Assembly: GCA_003560175.1 (NCBI GenBank)
Contig: PWIZ01000143.1
Coordinates: forward strand, 1 to 12,935
Length of the DNA: 12,935 bases
Source of the DNA: Halomonas sp.
GTDB lineage: Bacteria; Pseudomonadota; Gammaproteobacteria; Pseudomonadales; Halomonadaceae
Reading direction: 5' to 3'
Made by a program: the position numbers and the translations under genes. This document shows, in pieces, positions 2,381 through 3,212 of the stretch (its first letter is position 1; each line of letters starts with the position of its first letter). The notes under the pieces were generated by a model. It was given only the letters and a program-made list of their open reading frames with translations, was not told the origin of the DNA and made no database searches.

Positions 2381-2410
2381 AGAAAAAAAGCCGACCCAAA
2401 CGGGTCGGCT
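2381..2410 (-). terminator. Rho-independent terminator of the small membrane-protein gene
   Basis: A perfect 9-bp stem (2389-2397 AGCCGACCC with 2402-2410 GGGTCGGCT) and a 4-base loop. Read on the - strand, the stem is followed by TTTTTTTCTT, so the T-tract serves leftward transcription, ending the gene at 2461-2574. It lies 8 bases after the transglycosylase stop on the other strand and has only weak T content on that side, so it probably also shields that gene but is built for the - strand. A second hairpin (2415-2420 GGGGGA with 2425-2430 TCCCCC) lies just before it in the leftward transcript. Confidence 0.85.
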
Positions 2411-2460: not shown

Positions 2461-2574
2461 TTAGTGCTTCTTCTTGCGATGGTCCCGCACGATGAAGGCG
2501 ATCCAGCCACCCATGAAGGCGATCATCATCGCGACGGTGACCAATCCGAAGATTACGGCGTCATCCCAGTACAT
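2461..2574 (-). CDS. Small single-helix membrane protein, CcoM-like (candidate cbb3 oxidase subunit)
   Basis: A 37-residue protein too short for usual ORF cut-offs. It begins MYWDDAVIFGLVTV, continues with a hydrophobic helix rich in Met, Ile, Ala, Gly and Phe (about residues 6-29) and ends in a basic tail RDHRKKKH, predicting one membrane span with the C-terminus in the cytoplasm. Evidence that it is real: a strong Shine-Dalgarno GGGAGGA 7 bases before ATG, a T-tract terminator about 50 bases after TAA on the same strand, and a promoter with an FNR/ANR-like box. From memory, the pattern W-D-x-x-VI-x-G-x-VTV-x-x-M-x-AF and the basic tail resemble CcoM, the roughly 36-residue accessory subunit of cbb3 cytochrome c oxidase in Pseudomonas stutzeri. 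The oxygen-responsive control fits that role. The gene is solid; the CcoM identity is probable but untested. Otherwise it is an unassigned single-span membrane protein. Confidence 0.8.
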   Translation of the reverse strand: MYWDDAVIFGLVTVAMMIAFMGGWIAFIVRDHRKKKH

Positions 2575-2600
2575 AGTGGTGTCCTCCCGTCTCGATCTGA

Positions 2601-2649
2601 TGAAACGACTTTAGCCCGGACGGACGGGGGAAACCCTGACCTGCATCAA
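2601..2649 (-). promoter_or_regulatory. Candidate class II FNR/ANR-dependent promoter of the small membrane-protein gene
   Basis: Read leftwards, an FNR/ANR-like box TTGAT-GCAG-GTCAG lies at 2649-2636 (8 of 10 bases of TTGAT-N4-ATCAA). A -10 element TAAAGT (2613-2608; 4 of 6 to TATAAT) follows. With an A at 2601 as transcript start, the box occupies exactly -48 to -35 (centre -41.5) and the hexamer -12 to -7, the geometry of FNR-activated class II promoters. No recognisable -35 hexamer is needed or seen. The leader before the ATG at 2574 would be about 27 bases and carries the Shine-Dalgarno. The sequence facts are direct; the start site and regulator are inferred. Confidence 0.6.
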
Positions 2650-2685
2650 TTTGATATCCGCAGCCCGGCATGGGCGGATCGAATC

Positions 2686-2699
2686 TTGATGCAGATCAG
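2686..2699. promoter_or_regulatory. Second FNR/ANR-like box, 50 bp upstream of the first
   Basis: TTGAT-GCAG-ATCAG matches 9 of 10 bases of the FNR consensus. Its centre (2692.5) is exactly 50 bases from that of the box at 2636-2649, placing it at -91.5 relative to the inferred start at 2601. The two boxes are near-perfect inverted copies (13 of 14 bases). A paired arrangement near -40 and -93 is known at E. coli yfiD, where the distal site moderates activation. The box begins 3 bases after the slyD-like stop codon. It also sits in a longer imperfect palindrome with GAATC/GATTC flanks (2681-2702). Confidence 0.55.
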
Positions 2700-2702
2700 A
2701 TT

Positions 2703-3212
2703 CTACAGCACCTTCTTGTCTTCCACGCTGGCAGGGTCGGTGCCAGGAGGCAGCGGATGGCCCTTGGCGAGCTCGGCACGGGTGGCGTCGCGCACCTCAA
2801 GCACCTCCAGCCGGTAGCGTAGGCTCCGGCCCGCCAGCGGATGATTGGTGTCGATCAACACGCTGGCGTCACGCACCTCTAGCACCGTGACCACTTGGGG
2901 ACCAGCCTCGCCGGGGGTCTGGAAGCGCATGCCCGGCGCCAGGTCATCCACCGGGAAGGCGCTGCGGCCAACCTCGCGAACCAGCGCCTCGTTGCGCAGG
3001 CCGTAGGCCTCGGCCGGCATCAGGGTCACGCTGAGTTCGGCGCCCTCGGTCTGGCCATCCAGGGCGCGCTCCAGCCCCTCAACGATGTTGTGGTGGCCGT
3101 GGAGATACTCCAGCGGCTGCTGGCGGGTACGAGAGTCATCCAGCACCTCGCCGGCGGCGGTATCGGTCAGGACATAGTGCAGGGTCACGACCCGCTGGGG
3201 AGCGATCGTCAT
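2703..3212 (-). CDS. SlyD-like FKBP-type peptidyl-prolyl cis-trans isomerase
   Basis: 169-residue cytoplasmic FKBP-type prolyl isomerase/chaperone. It aligns by eye with E. coli SlyD throughout: PLEYLHGHHNIVEGLE at 33-48, AYG at 69-71, the inserted chaperone (IF) domain at about 70-122, NHPLAGRSLRYRLEV at 123-137, and RDATRAELAKGH just before the tail. The FKBP half catalyses prolyl isomerisation; the IF domain holds unfolded or Tat-type clients in known SlyD proteins. Oddity: the long His/Cys/Asp-rich metal-binding tail of E. coli SlyD is absent and replaced by a short tail ending in EDKKVL, so nickel storage or delivery to hydrogenase is unlikely. The start ATG has GAGGAG about 7 bases upstream. 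It lies 39 bases after rfaH on the same strand, so the two are probably co-transcribed. SlpA is the alternative name, but the 33-48 and 123-137 segments look more like SlyD. Confidence 0.88.
   Translation of the reverse strand: MTIAPQRVVTLHYVLTDTAAGEVLDDSRTRQQPLEYLHGHHNIVEGLERALDGQTEGAELSVTLMPAEAYGLRNEALVREVGRSAFPVDDLAPGMRFQTPGEAGPQVVTVLEVRDASVLIDTNHPLAGRSLRYRLEVLEVRDATRAELAKGHPLPPGTDPASVEDKKVL

Follow-up and report, generated by a model that had tools for sequence, protein, structure and literature searches.

Promoters with tandem FNR sites are, to our knowledge, known mainly from yfiD of Escherichia coli and from synthetic promoters. In a limiter of the yfiD type, the distal box is weaker than the proximal one and is filled only when the regulator is abundant. 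The original report of repression by tandem FNR sites in E. coli is said to have found the effect sharpest with the upstream site near -85 and -95, at spacings of 43.5 and 53.5. In the tandem CRP promoters of Belyaeva 1998, synergy reportedly peaks near spacings of 33, 42, 52 and 62.

The yfiD gene (grcA; Green 1998, Marshall 2001) resembles the ccoM promoter described here in having a class II FNR box with a second box about 50 bp upstream. Its sites at -40.5 and -93.5 are 53 bp apart, whereas the spacing at ccoM is mostly 49-52 bp with variants of 32, 41 and 61-62 bp, and both the gene and the regulator orthologue differ. According to PMC11264516, the second yfiD site lies at -93.5, upstream of a class II FNR site, and E. 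coli melR constructs are strongly repressed when a further FNR site is placed upstream in the -85 to -95 region; PMC10208419 gives a higher yfiD activity under micro-oxic than under fully anoxic conditions. A single site is present in 89% of the direct FNR peaks of E. coli (PMC3688515). Tandem CRP promoters (Belyaeva 1998, cited in PMC5957442) involve the same protein superfamily and, as in ccoM, a second dimer in helical phase with the dimer at -41.5; the regulator there is CRP, whereas at ccoM it would be ANR, and synergy at ccoM is putative.

The window examined here is a stretch of 12,935 nucleotides from Halomonas sp., taken from a draft assembly of 2.63 Mb in 439 contigs that is 72% complete. 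Literature searches, judged by titles and the beginnings of abstracts, found no paper on the ccoM promoter, and the texts consulted do not describe the promoter of ccoM in Pseudomonas stutzeri either.

The ccoM Gene and Its Surroundings

The small gene downstream of the boxes lies on the minus strand (2461..2574), with its ATG at 2574 and its stop codon ending at 2461, and comprises 37 codons. In a profile search the 37-amino-acid product scores 59.6 bits against NF041600, above the curated cut-off of 40, and its sole match in the PDB is chain N of entry 5djq (E 1e-5), which is titled 'putative uncharacterized protein'. We take this chain to be the CcoM chain of the Pseudomonas stutzeri cbb3 oxidase, a subunit reportedly described by Kohlstaedt in 2016, which makes it the homologous subunit to the product encoded in the window. 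Judged by these matches, the gene at 2574..2461 is ccoM, encoding a small accessory subunit of cbb3 cytochrome c oxidase, a low-oxygen respiratory enzyme. The genome also contains ccoN.

A Shine-Dalgarno-like GGGAGG (2583..2588, minus strand) is located 8 bases before the ATG. A consensus scan identified a terminator-like stem and T run 3′ of ccoM (2389..2410, minus strand), from which a monocistronic ccoM RNA of about 0.2 kb is predicted. Upstream of ccoM and on the same strand is a gene for an FKBP-type peptidyl-prolyl isomerase (2703..3212), SlyD-like and under the curated cut-offs. Its end at 2703 abuts the distal box, with the stop codon three bases away. The nearest relatives of this FKBP gene are in Halomonas (98% in a Halomonas MAG), and 74 of the 78 relatives found carry names of Halomonadaceae genera. 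In PMC6588701, slyD is listed in the core Anr regulon of Pseudomonas. A link between this entry and the adjacency of the FKBP gene and ccoM was considered and dropped, since no slyD was seen by eye, among the matches listed, beside ccoM in three loci (L124, L128 and L137) of family f19, which would correspond to Pseudomonadaceae.

Architecture of the Promoter

The predicted proximal FNR/ANR box, TTGATGCAGGTCAG, occupies 2636..2649 on the minus strand (centre 2642.5) and has two mismatches to the consensus TTGATNNNNATCAA. The predicted distal box (2686..2699, minus strand, centre 2692.5) reads CTGATCTGCATCAA on the minus and TTGATGCAGATCAG on the plus strand; in the latter form it has one mismatch. 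Both were located by sequence match. The boxes are inverted copies with one base different, and their centres are exactly 50 bases apart, or about five turns of DNA. The 36 bp spacer (2650..2685, minus strand) keeps its length among relatives while its sequence drifts (identity 0.43), and together with the boxes it can fold as an RNA hairpin (fold z -3.2). A -10 hexamer, TAAAGT, is present at 2613-2608 (minus strand). With this hexamer and a transcription start at 2601 on the minus strand, predicted from the positions of the -10 and the box, the boxes fall at -41.5 and -91.5. The order toward the gene is CTGATCTGCATCAA (2699-2686), 36 bp, TTGATGCAGGTCAG (2649-2636), TAAAGT (2613-2608), GGGAGG and ATG. 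No sigma-70 pair of -35 and -10 was found in 2380-2760, and the arrangement is that of a class II promoter, with a box at about -41.5 of the predicted start, a -10 and no -35.

The original prediction had placed two inverted boxes 50 bases apart at -41.5 and -91.5, with class II spacing to TAAAGT; given the predicted start at 2601, both points are borne out, the boxes differing at a single base. The likeness to yfiD that it drew also holds, in the sense of a class II box and a second about 50 bp upstream.

Within the window, sites with at most two mismatches number 5 as against 1.06 expected, and 1 of 200 shuffles reaches 5, which is a modest excess. In the whole draft genome, TTGATNNNNATCAA with at most one mismatch occurs in 66 places, compared with 9 for the reversed control. 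Elsewhere in this genome, two FNR-like boxes lie 71 bp apart (G000:C312, 1828-1841 and 1899-1912; L219).

The Probable Regulator

The genome encodes an FNR-type protein (C199) that scores 285 bits against NF008365 (cut-off 228). It carries an N-terminal CQTCSLSSLC and ETVSR in the helix, its best PDB matches are the FNR entries 9qll, 5cvr and 5e44, and by eye its gene is flanked by ttcA- and hemN-like genes. A second FNR-type protein with N-terminal cysteines (C324, L235) reaches 223.1 bits, just below the 228 required. A third protein, of the Crp/Fnr type (C252, L236), has no N-terminal cysteine cluster, reaches 44.6 bits and by eye lies beside molybdenum-cofactor-like genes. All three proteins carry the ET(V/L)SR helix. 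An ANR homologue is present in H. elongata, according to PMC9006882. ANR is the presumed protein acting at ccoM. The FNR/ANR control proposed in the original prediction is strongly supported by the conservation of the boxes described below, by the FNR-type regulator in the same genome and by the probable identity of the gene as ccoM.

In family f5 (e.g., L139, L141, L144), a motif test covering 900 bases found an FNR-type regulator gene upstream of ccoM, and in the same orientation, in 10 of 17 loci, so that the regulator stands beside its likely target.

Conservation of the Paired Boxes

In the window's own family (f1), 105 of 201 sampled genomes have ccoM, and all 105 loci were fetched. A sample of 391 genomes from the order gave 110 matches to NF041600, of which 101 were over the cut-off; nine sub-cut-off genomes were left out, and the 91 over-cut-off loci outside the family were all fetched, bringing the total to 196 loci. 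Up to 260 bases upstream of the start were scanned with a hand-weighted FNR score. The window's own genus is denoted g1, and g11 is another genus of f1.

Pairs of boxes at 49-52 bp number 143 in the 196 ccoM loci, compared with 1.7 in first-order scrambled sequence, the loci being related and the counts not independent. This comparative count is stronger proof of the pair than the modest excess within the window. The boxes, on whose conservation in relatives the original prediction had made itself depend, are indeed kept: some best pair at 28-65 bp is present in 186 of the 196 (related) loci, and it lies at 49-52 bp in 138 and outside that range, or is absent, in 58. In 130 of these 138, the proximal centre is followed by a TA...T hexamer at a distance of 28-29 bases. 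By family, the best pair is at 49-52 bp in 99 of 105 loci of f1, 16 of 16 of f35, 15 of 17 of f19, 3 of 3 of f32 and 2 of 2 of f24, in 2 of 17 of f18 and 1 of 2 of f2, and in none of f5 (17 loci), f26 (7), f7 (5), f40 (4) and f34 (1). Chance pairs among the 138 are L124 in f19, which has a spurious second site and without which f19 counts 14, and two weak ones in f18.

Among 31 distinct sequences of the window's genus, identity is 0.90 in the distal box, 0.91 in the proximal box and 0.43 in the 36 bp spacer, with the picking of boxes by score inflating the box values. The corresponding figures in g11, where boxes were likewise picked by score, are 0.75, 0.89 and 0.43. The maintenance of the pair at the same gene in many related bacteria suggests that the second box matters.

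A second set of loci was anchored on the FKBP gene. Here ccoM adjoins in 59 of 78 named loci (57 with a stricter expression), and the spacing between boxes in the 59 is 50 (43 loci), 51 (12), 49 (2), 60 (1) or 61 (1). In the other 19 of the 78, ccoM was not recognised within the fetched flank, and four of these (L340-L343) are from records not named Halomonadaceae. The spacing is 49 in the closest relative (L266) and 60 in H. halocynthiae.

Several lineages apparently have a single box at ccoM, namely f7, f40, f26 g72, f18 g41 and f5 g104. In f18 g41 (e.g., L155, L160, L183) a single upstream box is located near -72 of the ATG. An FNR-like site of the CTGA type, often CTGAGCTTAATCAA, follows 39-40 bp downstream of the -72 box in 12 of the 15 loci of this genus, near the expected start region.

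Helical Phasing of the Spacing

A pair was called strict when both boxes scored at least 12 and a -10 was present at class II distance. The strict spacings are 32 (7 loci), 41 (2), 49 (7), 50 (96), 51 (24), 52 (3), 61 (2), 62 (1) and 67 bp (1). All but one of the 143 strict pairs (142) therefore fall on a ladder of 32, 41, 49-52 and 61-62 bp, with steps of about one helical turn. The 32 bp form occurs in f5 g65 and f18 g109, the 41 bp form in f1 g5, and the 61-62 bp form in single lineages of f1, f34 and f26. The phase of the main mode is shared by six non-modal lineages to a greater degree than by random spacings (p 0.0086); the test is small, its period of 9.7 bp was fitted, and the 67 bp case was excluded. 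Strong pairs without a class II -10 amount to 17 loci-by-distance, at 17, 39, 40, 51, 63, 70 and 72 bp; 12 of them are at 39-40 bp and belong to f18 g41, with one or more in f5 g65. These comparisons lend good support to tandem ANR sites kept in helical phase at this promoter. At one orthologous promoter, the spacing has been varied naturally by about whole turns, which provides a ready-made series for asking whether a phased upstream dimer of the FNR type helps or restrains.

Specificity of the Pair for ccoM

In the window's genus, the pattern of the pair matches 37 of 51 genomes, at one place each (in G122 on one strand only), and the reversed control matches none. A second form of the pattern matches 1 of 51 (G126), at ccoM, giving 38 of 51 for both forms together. 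The pair is at ccoM in 28 of these 38 genomes and at a ccoM-less copy of the locus in one; nine matches (G573, G575, G577, G581, G582, G584, G588, G589, G590) were outside the inspection. For the first pattern, 23 of the 37 places adjoin known ccoM coordinates and 4 more have a ccoM ORF 62-64 bases on. Four of the 13 genomes that match neither form are without ccoM in the profile search (G084, G114, G138, G142), and two (G135, G178) carry a ccoM whose boxes or spacing the patterns do not cover; the seven others were outside the inspection. In G188 (L355, G188:C11, ~350126-350190), the box pair, a TACAGT -10 and the terminator-like stem are kept; no ccoM ORF was seen at the locus and NF041600 has no match in the genome. 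Apparently ccoM has been lost there and its promoter left behind.

Similar behavior is seen in genus g71 of f19, where 29 of 40 genomes have one pair, at ccoM in 28; among the 11 without a match, G254 has ccoM with one box. The lone g71 pair away from ccoM (L379, G611) precedes, by eye, an alcohol-dehydrogenase-like gene. The box pair is close to a signature of ccoM, specific enough to point to a gene that is small enough for annotation to miss.

The original prediction had raised the question of whether ccoNOPQ shares the same boxes, and for ccoN in the family mostly a single box was seen. Of the 34 ccoN loci of the family that exceed the cut-off, 30 were read, 23 of them in genomes with ccoM. 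One box near -80 of the start codon is present upstream of ccoN in 28 of the 30, strong by and large and weak (11.3) in L245. In five loci where the script picked an early start, the box is at -8 or -33. L254 and L241 have weak second sites, at distances of 52 and 62 bp respectively, and ccoN of L264 has no box. Promoters of the ccoN type (class II FNR/ANR) thus share an FNR box with ccoM but, across these 30 loci, do not have its strong phased second box. The window's own ccoN contig contains only 68 bases upstream, so that a box is not readable there.

Role of the Distal Box

At low oxygen, iron-sulphur ANR would bind the -41.5 box and act as a class II activator of RNA polymerase at a promoter without a recognisable -35. 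Some five helical turns further upstream, another ANR dimer would sit at -91.5 and act in cis on the same complex, probably through contact with the alpha C-terminal domain. The distal box would then be a helper that raises or sharpens the induction of ccoM, and this is thought likelier than a limiter. The core of the proposal, namely tandem ANR sites in helical phase and a distal box that functions, appears highly probable from the comparative evidence; the explanation as a whole, with the helper role included, is evenly poised between right and wrong. The start site is inferred, as are the filling of the two boxes and whether the distal one raises or lowers expression.

The principal alternative, put forward in the original prediction, is a limiter of the yfiD type. 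Once active ANR is plentiful, the dimer at -91.5 would curb class II activation, and ccoM would peak under micro-oxic conditions and fall in full anoxia. By analogy such repression at ccoM is possible, and it merits serious consideration even though it is probably not the correct reading. The E. coli precedent for repression by FNR at -85 to -95 (PMC11264516) favors it, as does the higher micro-oxic than anoxic activity of yfiD (PMC10208419); a micro-oxic peak would also suit a cbb3 oxidase. In the window the second box is 50 bp upstream of the class II box, consistent with the ~50-53 bp of the yfiD type, but the distal box is not the weaker of the two by sequence score (one mismatch against two).

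The relative strength of the boxes bears directly on this choice. On the hand-made score, the distal box outscores the proximal at 50 of 104 f1 loci, ties with it at 36 and falls below it at 18. If a limiter comes into play only at high levels of the regulator, it is expected to be the weaker of the two boxes, and the finding that the distal box is equal or stronger in 86 of 104 therefore counts for a helper; in the window's family the distal box is not generally weaker, unlike in a yfiD-type limiter. Most of this excess is contributed by g11, in which the distal box scores higher in 26 of 31 loci, the same in 4 and lower in 1, and ten distal boxes are perfect consensus. The window's genus is close to balanced, the distal box being higher in 7 of its 42 loci, equal in 26 and lower in 9. 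The order expected for a limiter is seen in f19, whose distal box is the weaker one in 14 of 16 loci. The best box of unpaired loci scores 14.05 (n = 44) and the proximal box of paired loci 13.41 (n = 152, p 2e-5), a weak comparison because a best-of-region box is set against a chosen one and relatedness is uncorrected. No difference between single and paired loci was found within f5, and two unpaired f1 loci score lower, not higher. Compensation between distal and proximal strength within f1 was considered separately and rejected (Spearman 0.06, p 0.59).

The spacing points in the same direction as the f1 scores. The observed ladder of 32, 41, 50-51 and 61 bp is within 1-2 bp of the positions at which tandem CRP synergy reportedly peaks, so a helper fits slightly better, while the spacings said to give the sharpest FNR repression (43.5 and 53.5) are 2-3 bp out of register with 41, 50-51 and 61. 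The mostly single box at ccoN (28 of 30 loci) also argues against a limiter, since this catalytic subunit would have to be restrained too. On balance we lean slightly toward the distal box as a helper.

A broader proposal can be made, one that we put forward tentatively and that is more doubtful than not. The phased second ANR dimer may be an ancestral feature that marks the ccoM promoter almost exclusively in much of the order, letting CcoM precede ccoNOPQ by responding earlier or at lower active ANR. If true, the assembly subunit would be in place before the oxidase, a control of stoichiometry written in promoter geometry.

Other Interpretations of the Paired Boxes

The two boxes could be read by different proteins, ANR and either a further FNR paralogue or an NO sensor of the DNR type, such that ccoM integrates oxygen and nitrogen-oxide signals. 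The genome does hold C324 (223.1 bits) and C252 (44.6 bits) besides C199, all with the ET(V/L)SR helix. However, nothing points to separate specificities: the window's two boxes are almost the same, and in most loci of the genus they resemble each other, which makes this division of labor improbable.

Very improbable, in our judgment, is that the inverted boxes matter as RNA, with a long hairpin in FKBP transcripts ending or stabilising the message and the FNR resemblance being secondary or a dual use. The window does fold (z -3.2), with the stem built from both boxes, and complementarity of the middle four bases exceeds that of shuffles over all loci (241 versus 195.1), in f1 (178 versus 154.7) and slightly in f19 (27 versus 22.3, p 0.0465). 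Against this, no excess is present within g1 (p 0.227), g11 (p 0.567) or f35 (p 0.50); f19 keeps the spacing with direct rather than inverted boxes; the upstream gene differs in other families, by eye among the matches listed; and the consensus scan called no terminator at the box stem. A hairpin or terminator as a general constraint was rejected, as covariation of the middle bases is absent within g1 and g11.

Least probable of all is that only the proximal box works and the distal one is a relic or bystander, a reading that the apparently single-box promoters of f7, f40, f26 g72, f18 g41 and f5 g104 and the lower conservation of the distal box in g11 (0.75 versus 0.89) would suit, but that sits poorly with near-equal identity in the window's genus (0.90 versus 0.91) beside a drifting spacer and with phasing of the pair across families.

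A short run of A/T is present on the upstream side of each box (2700-2702 and 2650-2652 in the window), and in the window's genus the three positions immediately preceding the distal box have an A+T content of 0.95-1.0. These runs are a possible docking place for the alpha domain of the polymerase.
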